Origin: an uncultured Bacteroidota bacterium
GTDB taxonomy: Bacteria; Bacteroidota; Bacteroidia; Chitinophagales; Saprospiraceae
Reading direction: 5' to 3'
Assembly (NCBI GenBank): GCA_903905445.1
Contig: CAIVGO010000473.1
Location: forward strand, 1 to 41,576
DNA: 41,576 bases
Made by a program: the position numbers and the translations under genes. Positions within the stretch are counted from its first letter, which is position 1; each line of letters opens with the position of its first letter. Shown piece by piece: positions 4,013-39,430 of this stretch. The notes beneath the pieces are model-generated. The model had not been told where the DNA came from. It saw nothing but the letters and a program-made list of their open reading frames with translations, and made no database searches.

Positions 4013-4705
4013 TTATTGTTGTTTTAATTTATTAAGCTGACTTATAAGCATGTATAATTTAGTATTTGGATTGTGTGTAGAAAAACGAAAGTCTACATAT
4101 TGGTTATCCAGTGATTTTGCCCATTCGATAGCCTGTTCTTCATTTCCATATTTTTGTAAAATATCGTACATGTCGGCACGATTTTTTGCATATTTGAATG
4201 GTAGACCAGTTCGTTCGGTAAGCCAGTGCTCAATTCTCGGCTTGTAGTCCTCCCGTGTCATTGGTACATTTACATACTCTAAATGCAGCAAGTACCATAA
4301 TTCAAATGCTTCATTAGACCAGGCACAGTTTATCTTGCGTCGTTGCTGTTCACCCTTATTTATTGCATTGTCAAAATTCGTTTCTGGGAAACTGTCTCTA
4401 TCAAAAACAGCCCATGTGTGGTCAAATTTTCTACCATTCATGCCTTTTTCTTTGCGCGCTCTTATTTTATCTGCTTCTTCTATCAAAGTCAGCGTATTTT
4501 TACCTTCACCTTCTATCACTAAGTAGTCTACAATACCAATTGGTAGTTTTTCTTTTAAAGATTTGAAATAGTTAGGCTCGGTTTTTTCGCCTTCGCAAAC
4601 GATCAGATAGTATTCCCGTAGAGGAGTTCCACCTACCTTCCGTTTTTGATTTTCCCGTGCAAATCTTTTTAATAGAGCGTTATCTATTTTTATTTTTCGT
4701 GCCAT
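4013..4705 (-). CDS. RloB-family (Toprim-like) protein, AbiLii-like
   Basis: 'YYLIVCEGEKTEPNYFKSLKEKL' and 'HTWAVFDRDSFPETNFDNAI...CAWSNEAFELWYLLHLEY' are RloB signatures. Start codon overlaps the upstream stop (TAATG). Confidence 0.88.
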   Translation of the reverse strand: MARKIKIDNALLKRFARENQKRKVGGTPLREYYLIVCEGEKTEPNYFKSLKEKLPIGIVDYLVIEGEGKNTLTLIEEADKIRARKEKGMNGRKFDHTWAVFDRDSFPETNFDNAINKGEQQRRKINCAWSNEAFELWYLLHLEYVNVPMTREDYKPRIEHWLTERTGLPFKYAKNRADMYDILQKYGNEEQAIEWAKSLDNQYVDFRFSTHNPNTKLYMLISQLNKLKQQ

Positions 4706-5979
4706 TAAACCGATAGTTTATTGAAGTCTCCAAAGAACGGGATTGCACCATAACGCCCATTGATATAATCTTTCTCGAACGACCGATCTTTTCTGACTTT
4801 ACCATCTTTATTATATTCTACAAGAGAATATAAATCTGATGCGCCAATTCTGTTTTTTTCGACAAAATAGATTTGATCTCGTCTTAAATTACAGATGCTT
4901 AATATATTGGTATCGTGTGTAGCAAAGATCAATTGTGCTCCATTTTTATTAATCTCTTGACTTTGAAAGAGTCTAATAATTGATAGTGTCAAAAGCGGAT
5001 GAAGTTTAGCATCCAATTCATCCACTATAAGTACTCCACCATCTTTAAGCGTATCAAAAATAGGCCCAGATAGGTCAATGATTTTATTTGTACCAGCACT
5101 TTCTTGTCTACGAGCATCAAAGTCAATTTCTTTGATGAAATTTTGATTATCATCAAATACTTTGTGGACTGTATGAAGGCTCACCTGGTTTTTCCCTTCT
5201 AAGTCAGAGATAAGTTGCTTGAGTATATCCTCTGGAACATCCGTAGGCAGTTCATTTGGATTAAATTCTTTCCTTTCGAGTTTGATATTGTCAAAACCCA
5301 AGTCTATGTCAATAAAAAAATTAGTCAATAATTCATTTAACGCAGGCTTATCGAGCATAGCAAACGTTATACTCCGATAGTTGTCATGGCTCAGCCCTGA
5401 AATTATATTAAAATTACGAAACCATTTCATTATTATTGATGCAGTGTGACCGTTAAACTGATCTACTACAGTTAAAAAGAGCGCATTATCTCTCGTTTTT
5501 TCTTCCAAATTTTTGCCTTCAGGAAAGTTTCGCATTACTTCGATTCCTTCCGGGACTCTTAAAAAGAGGGGTTTTTCCGATTTTTTCTTCTCCGTGGCAA
5601 AAAGCCATTCTGAATGAATTGAAGTTCTATCCGCCTCGAATCCATATCGATATTTAATATTTTCTATCCAAAAAACAACTTCATAAAAGGTAGGCTCATG
5701 TGAGGTTCTCGTGTTTAGCAAGAATGGATCGTAAGGGATTTCACTCACTGAGCGCTTGTCAAAGTTTTCTACCACAATCCTTTTCATGGTATTCACTCCT
5801 CTAAGCAAATTGGATTTGCCAGAGGAATTAGCGCCATAAATAACAGCAGCAGAGAGGAAACTATATTGATCCCTTTTAATTATATTTTGCGGGTGGTCAG
5901 AGATGGATGCGGGCTCCATACTAAGCGTTTTGCGCTCGGAAAACGATCTGAAATTGCCGATTGTGAAGTTTAAAAGCAT
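4705..5979 (-). CDS. AAA-family (AAA_21/RloA-like) ATPase, AbiLi-like
   Basis: Walker A 'YGANSSGKSNLLRG', Walker B 'GGVLIVDELDAKLHPLL', 'LIFATHDTNIL'. Translationally coupled to the RloB gene. Confidence 0.88.
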   Translation of the reverse strand: MLLNFTIGNFRSFSERKTLSMEPASISDHPQNIIKRDQYSFLSAAVIYGANSSGKSNLLRGVNTMKRIVVENFDKRSVSEIPYDPFLLNTRTSHEPTFYEVVFWIENIKYRYGFEADRTSIHSEWLFATEKKKSEKPLFLRVPEGIEVMRNFPEGKNLEEKTRDNALFLTVVDQFNGHTASIIMKWFRNFNIISGLSHDNYRSITFAMLDKPALNELLTNFFIDIDLGFDNIKLERKEFNPNELPTDVPEDILKQLISDLEGKNQVSLHTVHKVFDDNQNFIKEIDFDARRQESAGTNKIIDLSGPIFDTLKDGGVLIVDELDAKLHPLLTLSIIRLFQSQEINKNGAQLIFATHDTNILSICNLRRDQIYFVEKNRIGASDLYSLVEYNKDGKVRKDRSFEKDYINGRYGAIPFFGDFNKLSV

Positions 5980-22055: not shown

Positions 22056-22160
22056 ATTCTGGTCGTTTTAGAAGGTAACGTTTAACGGGAGTATTAAAGT
22101 TCGGTGCATCTTGACCCAAATAATGTCAACGCACTGTGGTTATGAAAATGGTTGTACCTT

Positions 22161-22216
22161 ATTCCTTTGAAAATCAATTTTTATCCATCCATCCTTCAAA
22201 TCCATTTAAATCTGGG
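22161..22216 (+). repeat. Dispersed repeat family 1, copy 1
   Basis: attcctttgaaaatcaatttttatccatccatccttcaaatccatttaaatctgggt; near-identical to copies 2 and 3. Confidence 0.85.
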
Positions 22217-22376: not shown

Positions 22377-22808
22377 ATGACAAATACAGAATTTACAATT
22401 CGCTTAATGGCCGCCCTGCTTGCTGGTTTATTGATCGGCTTTGAAAGGCAATGGAACCATAAGTCCGCAGGTTTGCGAACCAATACGTTGGTTTCGGTTG
22501 GTGCGGCCATTTTTGTATTGATTTCCATAATGGTTACAGAAAAGGGAAACGGCGATGTAACCAGAATAATAGGACAAGTGGTTACTGGTATTGGCTTTTT
22601 ATGTGCTGGGATCATTTTTAAAGAAGGTATTAGTGTGCATGGATTGACAACAGCAGTTACCGTTTGGTGCTGCTCGGCAGTTGGCTGTTTAGCAGCAGCA
22701 GGGTATTTCAAAGAGACGTTTATTGCAACATTCTTCATTATTGCGGTAAATATATTGTTAAAACCAATAGACGAATGGTTGACAAATAGACGGAAAGATG
22801 TCGTCTAA
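22377..22808 (+). CDS. MgtC/SapB-family membrane protein
   Basis: 'RLMAALLAGLLIGFERQWNHKSAGLRTNTLVSVGAAIFVLIS...GQVVTGIGFLCAGIIFKEGISVHGLTTAVTVWCCSAVGCLAAAGYF'. Confidence 0.94.
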   Translation: MTNTEFTIRLMAALLAGLLIGFERQWNHKSAGLRTNTLVSVGAAIFVLISIMVTEKGNGDVTRIIGQVVTGIGFLCAGIIFKEGISVHGLTTAVTVWCCSAVGCLAAAGYFKETFIATFFIIAVNILLKPIDEWLTNRRKDVV

Positions 22809-22864
22809 TCCTTTGAAAATCAAATTTTTATCAATCCATCCTTTAAATCCATTTAAATCCTGGG
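22806..22864 (+). repeat. Dispersed repeat family 1, copy 2
   Basis: taatcctttgaaaatcaaatttttatcaatccatcctttaaatccatttaaatcctggg. Confidence 0.85.
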
Positions 22865-22866
22865 TC

Positions 22867-22926
22867 TAATCCATTGAAAATCAATGTTTTTTATCCATCA
22901 ATCCTTTAAATCCATTTAAATCCTGG
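22867..22926 (+). repeat. Dispersed repeat family 1, copy 3, tandem with copy 2
   Basis: taatccattgaaaatcaatgttttttatccatcaatcctttaaatccatttaaatcctgg. Confidence 0.85.
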
Positions 22927-22935
22927 TTTAAAATA

Positions 22936-23658
22936 ATGACCTTAACAGAAGTAATAAATTACAGACGTTCCGTAAGAAATTACAAAGATATCTCGATTGA
23001 TACGGAGAAAGTGAAACATTGTATTGCACTGGCAACCTTAGCACCGAACAGTTCAAACATGCAACTTTGGGAGTTTTACCATATCACCACCCCAGAAATT
23101 TTAAAGCAGCTTGCTGTAGCCTGTTTAAGTCAAGCATCAGCAACAACGGCGCAGCAAATGGTCATTTTTGTAACCAGGCAAGATTTTTACAAAAAAAGGG
23201 CTAAAGAAATGATGCACTTAGAAATGCAAAATGTGCAAAAAAACAGTCCAAAAGAGAAACAGGCTAAAAGAATTAAAAACTGGAAAATGTATTATGGACG
23301 GGTAATGCCTTTTTTGTATGCACGGTTCTTTGGATTTTTTGGCTTGGTTCGGAAAATAGCAGTGAGCATCGTAGGACTTTTCAGACCAATCGTTTACCAG
23401 GTATCTGAAAATGATATGCGCGTGGTGGTGCATAAAACTTGTGCTTTGGCTGCACAAACCTTTATGCTGGCAATGGCTGATGAAAAATATGACACTTGCC
23501 CCATGGAAGGATTTGACAGCAGAAAAGTAAAACGTATTTTAAAATTACCTTATGGTGCTGAGGTGAATATGATTATTTCTTGCGGAATACGCGAAGAAAA
23601 TGGTGTTTGGGGCGACAGGATGAGAATTCCCTTTGATGAAGTATATCAAGAAATTTAA
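22936..23658 (+). CDS. Nitroreductase-family protein
   Basis: 'EVINYRRSVRNYKD...CIALATLAPNSSNMQLWEFYHITTPE...AAQTFMLAMADEKYDTCPMEGFDSRKVKRILKLP...EVNMIISCGIREE'. Confidence 0.9.
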   Translation: MTLTEVINYRRSVRNYKDISIDTEKVKHCIALATLAPNSSNMQLWEFYHITTPEILKQLAVACLSQASATTAQQMVIFVTRQDFYKKRAKEMMHLEMQNVQKNSPKEKQAKRIKNWKMYYGRVMPFLYARFFGFFGLVRKIAVSIVGLFRPIVYQVSENDMRVVVHKTCALAAQTFMLAMADEKYDTCPMEGFDSRKVKRILKLPYGAEVNMIISCGIREENGVWGDRMRIPFDEVYQEI

Positions 23659-23745
23659 CCGCGGCGCATCGGTTGTAAAAAAAACAAAGATTGAGCGTTG
23701 CAAGATATTAGGCGTTGTAAAAGCGTAGACCACGCGCGGCGGAAA
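23654..23745 (+). repeat. Dispersed repeat family 2 (GC-rich inverted termini), copy R1
   Basis: About 92 bp, ends in CGCGCGGCGGAAA; interior near-identical to R2; overlaps the nitroreductase stop codon. Confidence 0.85.
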
Positions 23746-23801
23746 TATCAGGAAAATAAAAGAATTCTTGAAGCATAAATCACTTTCTAAAATCTAAACA
23801 T

Positions 23802-24449
23802 ATGTGTTTCTCTGCAAGCGCCAGTTTTGGAGCCGGTGCTGTTCTTACAGTTATTGGTGTTGTATCTATCAAAAAAACGCATCGTGCTTCACAATTGCTA
23901 TTTGCTAGTATTCCATTTGTTTTTGGAGTGCAGCAAATAGCAGAAGGCGTACTGTGGCGAACACTTCCAAACCCTGATTATCTGAATACTCAAAAAATAT
24001 TCACGTATGTTTTTTTGTTTTTCGCACAAGTTCTGTGGCCCTTGTGGGTTCCAATCGCAATTTTACTACTGGAGAAAAATGCAACAAGAAAAATCATTCA
24101 AAAGGTTTGGGTTGTGGCAGGACTAATTGTAGGTTTATATTTGGCATACTGCCTAATGGCATTTCATGTAGAGGCAAAAATAGTAGGACATCATATTGCT
24201 TATTTACAGGACTACCCAGATTCACTTAGGAAATATGTCATCATATTATATGCTTTTGCTACGATAGTTCCTCCATTCTTTTCACACATCAGACGGATGT
24301 GGATGTTGGGCATATCCATTTTAATTGCTTACGTCGTTACAGCAGTATTTTACAACCATTACATTCTTTCGGTTTGGTGCTTTTTTTCCTCTATCATTAG
24401 TTTGTCCGTTTACGCCATCATGGTAGAAATTTCAAACAAAAGGCTATAG
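23802..24449 (+). CDS. DUF6629-like multipass membrane protein
   Basis: N-terminus 'MCFSASASFGAGAVLTVIGVVSI', several TM segments. Confidence 0.75.
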   Translation: MCFSASASFGAGAVLTVIGVVSIKKTHRASQLLFASIPFVFGVQQIAEGVLWRTLPNPDYLNTQKIFTYVFLFFAQVLWPLWVPIAILLLEKNATRKIIQKVWVVAGLIVGLYLAYCLMAFHVEAKIVGHHIAYLQDYPDSLRKYVIILYAFATIVPPFFSHIRRMWMLGISILIAYVVTAVFYNHYILSVWCFFSSIISLSVYAIMVEISNKRL

Positions 24450-24459
24450 AATGATCATT

Positions 24460-24550
24460 TTTTCCGCCGCGCGTTGGTTATAAAAAAACAAAGATTGAGC
24501 GTTGCGAGATATTATGCGTTGTAAAAGTGAAGACCACGCGCGGCGGAAAA
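24460..24550 (+). repeat. Dispersed repeat family 2, copy R2
   Basis: TTTTCCGCCGCGCGTTGGT ... ACCACGCGCGGCGGAAAA; termini are inverted repeats; direct repeat of R1, start-to-start distance about 806 bp. Confidence 0.88.
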
Positions 24551-25014: not shown

Positions 25015-25045
25015 TTTTCCGCCGCGCGTGATCTTTACGCTTGAT
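25015..25045 (-). repeat. Dispersed repeat family 2, inverted half-copy R3
   Basis: TTTTCCGCCGCGCGTGATCTTTACGCTT matches the reverse complement of the right end of R1/R2 (TTTTCCGCCGCGCGTGGTCTTCAC..TT). Confidence 0.65.
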
Positions 25046-25116
25046 GCGCTCGATGCTTCATCGTGGAGCGTGATATTAGATGGAGTGTTTTTTATTGGTG
25101 GGGTTGAGCCTTGCGT

Positions 25117-25496
25117 CTTAGTAAATACTTCGCCTTTTTTGTATTGATTGAGCCTTGCCCCCGGCTAGATCCTTCGCCTTTTTTATATGCCATAGCAATT
25201 GGATTTGCCCGTATTGGTAATTTTCACAAAACTAATTGCGTCGGCATATTCTTCCCCTTATTTATTCGTGGTTATTTAGACCTCAACGGGGGAAGTAAAA
25301 AGACTCAGGATGACAACTCACGTTAAAATAAGGTCTGATCTTTAGTTTGATAAAGATATGGAAGTTAAAAACAACGTGAGCTGTCATCCTGAGGGCCGTT
25401 TCTTTCCCTTTCGGATCATTAATTACCCAAAATGGTAAGGGGGAAAGAAACGGACGGAAGGATCTGGCCAGGCGCTACCTTGCAGTATTTGCTAAG
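25117..25496. repeat. About 380-bp nested imperfect palindrome containing GTCATCCTGAG arms
   Basis: 25117-25129/25484-25496, 25163-25174/25458-25469 and 25304-25324/25373-25393 are nested inverted repeats, each with one mismatch. Extra hairpin 25396-25408/25441-25453 is perfect. Confidence 0.85.
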
Positions 25497-34037: not shown

Positions 34038-34060
34038 GTACGCGTACTCGGAGTGTTTTT

Positions 34061-34340
34061 CGCACAGATGCTACATAGATTGGGTTTCGCACAGATGCTA
34101 CACAGATTTGTTTTCGCAGATGTTACACAGATTGGGTTTCGCACAGATGCTACATAGATTGGGTTTCGCACAGATGCTACACAGATTTGTTTTCGCAGAT
34201 GTTACGCAGATTGGGTTTCGCACAGATGCTACATAGATTGGGTTTCGCACAGATGCTACACAGATTTGTTTTCGCAGATGTTACACAGATTGGGTTTCGC
34301 ACAGATGCTACACAGATTTCTTTCGCAGATGTTACACAGA
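34061..34340. repeat. Higher-order tandem repeat, 79-bp period built from three related subunits of about 26 bp
   Basis: CGCACAGATGCTACATAGAT recurs at 34061, 34140 and 34219 (exact 79-bp spacing); related subunits CGCACAGATGCTACACAGATTTG and CGCAGATGTTACACAGATTGGG in between. Confidence 0.92.
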
Positions 34341-34359
34341 TTTTCTGTGTAACATCTGC
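34325..34359. repeat. Perfect 16-bp-stem hairpin at the end of the tandem array
   Basis: GCAGATGTTACACAGA-TTT-TCTGTGTAACATCTGC. Confidence 0.9.
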
Positions 34360-39181: not shown

Positions 39182-39384
39182 GTGTATTTGTGTAAGTGAA
39201 AAATCAAAACAAACACAAACCTATACAATGGCACTTTTTTTACTTGTGCTCGAATGCAAACTTAAAGAACAGATAACTTAAAAAGGTCTAATGTTTCGTT
39301 ATGGTTATTTTGTTGTTATTTTTAGCGATAAAGTTTCTTTTAAGGAAAGTTTAGGTAAGGGAAATGATGTGACCGTTATACCCC

Positions 39385-39402
39385 GATTTAAATGGATTTA
39401 AG
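39385..39402 (-). repeat. Short fragment of dispersed repeat family 1
   Basis: gatttaaatggatttaag is the reverse complement of cttaaatccatttaaatc. Confidence 0.5.
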
Positions 39403-39430
39403 GGAGGGTATATTATAAAATCTCCTATTT

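Follow-up and report, generated by a model that had tools for sequence, protein, structure and literature searches.

We analysed a window of 41,576 nucleotides (contig CAIVGO010000473.1) from an uncultured Saprospiraceae bacterium, in which a DUF6629 gene is enclosed by two direct repeats, R1 and R2. The features of the locus are listed here, with the modules A and B1 defined further below.

22936..23658, + strand: nitroreductase gene, 5' of R1 (PF00881, E 1.2e-30)
about 23656..23745, + strand: R1, a solo B1 module; its left end has diverged and abuts the nitroreductase stop codon, its right end GACCACGCGCGGCGGAAA is intact
23802..24449, + strand: DUF6629 gene, 215 aa, enclosed by R1 and R2 (PF20334, E 2.5e-28)
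24460..24550, + strand: R2, a solo B1 module; left and right ends intact
24460..24478, + strand: left terminal inverted repeat of R2, TTTTCCGCCGCGCGTTGGT, with one bulged T
24533..24550, + strand: right terminal inverted repeat of R2, ACCACGCGCGGCGGAAAA
25017..25079, + strand: truncated module A, represented by its left part (positions 2-64 of 83; nhmmer E 1e-9; BLAST to the R2 terminus)

The direct-repeat stretches at 23678-23745 and 24482-24549 (68 nt) are 94% identical, and a BLAST search of the organism's own genome aligned R1 with R2 at 90% identity (E 5e-26). R1 starts at or just past the nitroreductase stop codon, with an MgtC gene standing 5' of the nitroreductase gene; R2 lies 10 bp 3' of the DUF6629 stop codon, and beyond it is a convergent ORF. 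The GC-rich termini of R2 are near-perfect inverted repeats, and as single-stranded DNA R2 folds at -22.2 kcal/mol, compared with -11.7 ± 2.0 for shuffled sequences (z -5.2), while R1 folds no better than its shuffles (z 0.19) because its left end has diverged. The earlier note had described direct repeats with a near-identical interior flanking a DUF6629-like gene, inverted termini on R2, and a diverged R1 left end touching the nitroreductase stop codon, and all of this description holds. The lone truncated A half at 25017-25079 is a third family member in the window, on the same strand as R1 and R2.

Copy counts derive from searches, which for the organism's own genome covered 5.86 Mb in 840 contigs. 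BLAST returned nine good-quality matches, R1 and R2 included, and a profile search returned 16, corresponding to about 14 elements. In the sister species (the MAG Saprospiraceae bacterium E1_MAG_00004, hereafter G008), a profile search gave 23 matches, or about 20 elements; the counting and alignment of copies proposed in the earlier note thus yielded a family of this size in each genome. The same profile search, run under stricter filters at which some weak matches are lost, gave zero matches in 40 other congeneric genomes. The copies are composite. Module B1 (~90 bp) forms the right-hand half of the longer element A-B1 (~170 bp), whose consensus ends in inverted repeats of ~23 bp (TTTCCGCCGCGCGTGGTCTTCAC / GTGAAGACCACGCGCGGCGGAAA); the 170-bp seed was assembled by eye from family copies, and four copies match it across almost its whole length. 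A palindromic module of about 125 bp with inverted ends of its own, B2, is optional between A and B1, where we found it on C521 of the own genome and C77 of G008; it occurs together with A on C46 and C760. The forms seen are A-B1, A-B2-B1, B2-B1, A-B2, and solo modules, and R1 and R2 appear to be derivatives of the longer element that lack A.

The family is short, non-coding, multi-copy, and dispersed over many contigs in both genomes, and it has terminal inverted repeats (the R2 ends and the A-B1 consensus ends), as MITEs do. These repeats are degraded in many single copies, and conservation is higher in the internal core than at the termini, an unusual pattern for a plain MITE. ERIC/RU-1 (127 bp), RU-2 (168 bp), and Correia elements are MITEs (PMC2759123, PMC3049150, PMC10969869) that resemble the family in being short, non-coding, and intergenic, with terminal inverted repeats and no transposase gene; the family differs from them in that neither a target duplication nor a parent transposase was found, that its core is better preserved than its ends, and that its clusters are strand-uniform. 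The arrangement of two outer modules around an optional middle module is also that of the BOX elements of Streptococcus pneumoniae, composite boxA-boxB-boxC repeats (PMC3049150) that are likewise intergenic and occur in solo and partial forms. This likeness is one of build and implies no membership by sequence: sequence and host are different, B2 occurs once per element rather than in a tandem array, and the family has about 14-20 copies.

The earlier note had read the locus as a single-gene cassette between folded repeats, a proposal that does not survive the comparison of copies. Most copies are single and stand among unrelated genes of any orientation (3' of genes, 5' of genes, and between divergent genes), while clustered copies have a variable number of ORFs between them (one, two, or more), of mixed orientation, rather than bracketing one gene each in a fixed orientation as the cassette proposal would have it. 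DUF6629 homologues 72-77% identical to the one in the window occur in three other Bacteroidota (Lacihabitans, L083; a Chitinophagales MAG, L084; and L085), and we found no repeat beside any of them. The note had named single, randomly oriented copies and repeat-free DUF6629 genes in relatives as observations that would count against it; copies are indeed mostly single and DUF6629 is repeat-free elsewhere, but neighbouring copies are not randomly oriented and always share a strand.

Integron gene cassettes are bounded by the core GTTRRRY (PMC3053210). A pattern check found no such core in R2 and one minus-strand match in the R1 stretch, in agreement with the note's own remark that the core was not recognisable. 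Over 19 copies, 70.3% of cells in the terminal stem were paired, compared with 71.4% after shuffling, so pairing is not maintained in single copies, and the stem appears to be left over from the ancestral element. An integron attC (PMC3053210) resembles the repeat in being an imperfect palindrome of similar length 3' of a gene; the repeat lacks its RYYYAAC/GTTRRRY boundary cores, its structure conserved despite sequence change, and its array with one gene per site. We also considered whether R1 and R2 could be attC-type sites for a tyrosine recombinase in a merely integron-like cassette, as the palindrome, its length, its position just 3' of the gene, and the common strand of neighbouring copies would allow. 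However, the missing core in R2 already refutes the integron family, the stem shows no covariation, most copies are single with flanking genes in any orientation, and a scan of ten proteins of the window recognised no recombinase. With cores, covariation, and array logic all missing, we reject an integron attC and regard the integron-like cassette as extremely improbable.

The strong hairpin that R2 can form, and its position between the DUF6629 stop codon and a convergent ORF, could suggest a functional RNA or a transcription terminator common to the downstream ends of genes. Rfam gave no match to the repeat, the copies share no meaningful consensus structure and no covariation, copies also lie 5' of genes and between divergent genes, and R1 lacks the fold; we therefore reject a structured RNA (no Rfam match, no consensus fold) and hold an RNA or terminator function to be highly improbable. 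A plasmid or phage origin was rejected as well, no match having been found; matches of viral contigs to a 17-mer spanned the core only and look like chance.

Copies neighbouring within 3 kb are far commoner than expected under random placement, and within clusters all pairs (13/13) lie on a common strand. Clustered copies are also more alike, with a distance of 0.182 within clusters versus 0.298 between contigs (permutation p 0.0002, from pairs that are not all independent). For the pair in the window, the distance between R1 and R2 is 0.094, and the distances to the G008 orthologues are 0.07 for R2 and 0.13 for R1. The simplest reading is that local direct duplication or gene conversion accounts for neighbours that are alike and on the same strand. 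A replication-linked strand preference is suggestive only as a cause: element strand agrees with AT skew in 8 of the 11 contigs, an agreement that is not significant, and with GC skew in 7 of 11. These same-strand, more-alike clusters are the part of the data that is not fully explained.

Strand-uniform neighbours and the fit to AT skew in 8/11 contigs would be expected of a REP/BIME-type element that a Y1 (RAYT-like) transposase inserts preferentially into one replication strand, and Y1 transposase genes are present in both the own genome and G008. Four congeners without the repeat have Y1 genes as well, however, and across six genomes no A, B1, or B2 module lies within ~1.5 kb of any of the 22 Y1 matches; moreover, a REP is shorter than these elements, and the skew agreement is not significant. 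We rejected a REP of a resident RAYT because the modules are absent near Y1 genes, and we think a REP/BIME-type element quite unlikely overall. Of the paired MITE or REP-like alternatives that the earlier note had offered, the MITE part, as a MITE-like or BOX-like composite, fits best, and the REP part is weakened by the distance from Y1 genes. It is very unlikely, in our view, that direct same-strand copies of this lineage-specific repeat serve as exchange points at which single genes, DUF6629 among them, are assembled and swapped by a not-yet-recognised dedicated recombinase or strand-biased transposase, that is, in cassette-like shuffling outside integrons.

No transposase gene was recognised beside the copies examined or between matching ends, among the part of the ORFs scanned in an assembly of 840 contigs, so the linked integrase or transposase with matching ends that the earlier note had suggested seeking did not appear. 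Nor was a convincing target site duplication seen among ten copies with recognisable ends, which is weak evidence because the copies are old and diverged; no duplication is shared between the flanks outside the R1 left end and the R2 right end. G008 keeps the order nitroreductase-R1-DUF6629-R2 at 91% DNA identity, so the arrangement is older than the split of the two species. Nitroreductase orthologues in three further genomes (G003, G017, and G028) sit in a different gene context or lie near a contig end, and none of these loci offers a precise empty site for R1-DUF6629-R2; precise gain or loss of the unit, another expectation of the cassette proposal, was thus not seen, and G008 has the unit.

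These results bear on whether R1 and R2 once formed the ends of a composite, transposon-like, non-autonomous unit that brought in DUF6629. Just one gene lies between the two direct copies, an arrangement known for TIME-COMP2 (PMC4133298), and each of the two genes has other neighbours elsewhere: DUF6629 has different neighbours in L084 and L085, where by our reading of the sequence it comes after a short SHOCT-like gene, and nitroreductase has different neighbours in G003, G017, and G028. TIME-COMP also comprises two miniature elements, possibly direct, around a gene-bearing core (PMC4133298). TIMEs, however, have 38-bp Tn3-type ends and duplications of 5-6 bp, and their transposition has been shown (PMC4133298); Tn3-type ends, duplications, and transposition are all unseen for the R1/R2 family. 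The R1-R2 unit has no flanking duplication, we found no empty site for it, and it has no known transposase; the gene content of other clusters varies (one, two, or more), with mixed orientations. A composite unit is the main rival reading, and we consider it unlikely.

Comparison with G008 further revealed element sites that differ between the two species. The element on C444 lies within a ~255-bp insert, larger than the element itself, that the orthologous site on G008 C32 lacks, and the A-B2 element on C46 is absent from the orthologous site on G008 C19, which holds ~37 bp of unrelated filler. Neither absence is perfectly clean, but with two A-containing copies missing from G008 the family is dynamic. 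A long hairpin, ATTGACGGGGTGACTGAAAAAGTCGCCCCGTCAAT, recurs beside A-containing elements (approximately L136:13440-13530, L118:4340-4420, and L137:5580-5660) and remains at the G008 site without A-B2. Synteny breaks coincide with elements on C212, on C806, and in the window. On C212, one copy lies at the join of genes that G008 C78 has ~10 kb apart, and a second lies at the join to a gene that G008 has on C67. The window matches G008 C36 on its left and C55 on its right, with the switch between R2 and 25769. A reciprocal exchange between the G008 C36 and C55 elements was considered as the source of this junction; the left C55 gene has no match in the own genome. Two paralogous genes with coiled-coil-like C-termini (L134:1397-2308 and L140:107-487) each have an element ~20 bp 3' of them; the longer has no Pfam match, and the G008 homologue, on C67, has no element there.

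Taken together, we think it likely that R1 and R2 are solo B1 copies from a small, lineage-specific family of non-coding interspersed repeats, MITE-like or BOX-like in character and passive at rearrangements. The elements may first have spread as non-autonomous MITE-like elements, mobilised in trans by a transposase that is now lost, diverged, or not found, and this spread would fall in the ancestor of the two species; R1-DUF6629-R2 has been inherited since their split. The left end of R2 appears to resemble the outer A end fused to the B1 body, and solo B1 copies such as R2 could have arisen by deletion of A between two CCGCCGCGCG direct repeats ~83 bp apart. Later, local duplication, conversion, and rearrangement would have used the copies as passive stretches of homology; MITEs have been reviewed as hot spots of homologous recombination, and MITE-flanked stretches can be moved (PMC10969869). 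Recombination at copies would have put DUF6629 between two direct copies, and dedicated cassette machinery would be unneeded. The MITE-like account needs local duplication or conversion as an added step for the same-strand clustering, and we call the family MITE-like without claiming MITE membership, which is unproven.

R1 and R2 are thus a real but ordinary feature, small composite interspersed repeats of a new, lineage-specific family. A limited literature search found no description of it, and it is apparently an undescribed composite repeat family in Saprospiraceae; in two close species, copies lie at the joins between rearranged genes. As a caution, two folded repeats around one gene are no evidence of a cassette if they are dispersed, degenerate, and inherited. 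Neighbours that share a strand and are more alike offer a testable sign of local duplication or strand-biased insertion.

The window holds further repeats and a candidate defence locus. A second, AT-rich intergenic repeat family (containing ATCCTTTAAATCCATTTAAATCC) occurs at 22158-22212, 22805-22859, and 22868-22922, with an inverted copy at 39376-39419, and flanks the MgtC gene as B1 flanks DUF6629. Another dispersed intergenic repeat, beginning GGGGAAAGAAACGGACGGAAGGATCTGGCCAGGCG, lies at 25436-25474, with copies on C21, C487, and C583 and also in G008. Between two genes at 34058-34343, a 79-bp unit with a 27-bp sub-period is repeated in tandem (3.7 copies, 95% matches). On the - strand at 4013-5979, an RloB-like gene (PF13707) adjoins an AAA_21 ATPase gene; PADLOC matches the two to AbiLii and AbiLi, making them a candidate AbiL-type anti-phage pair.
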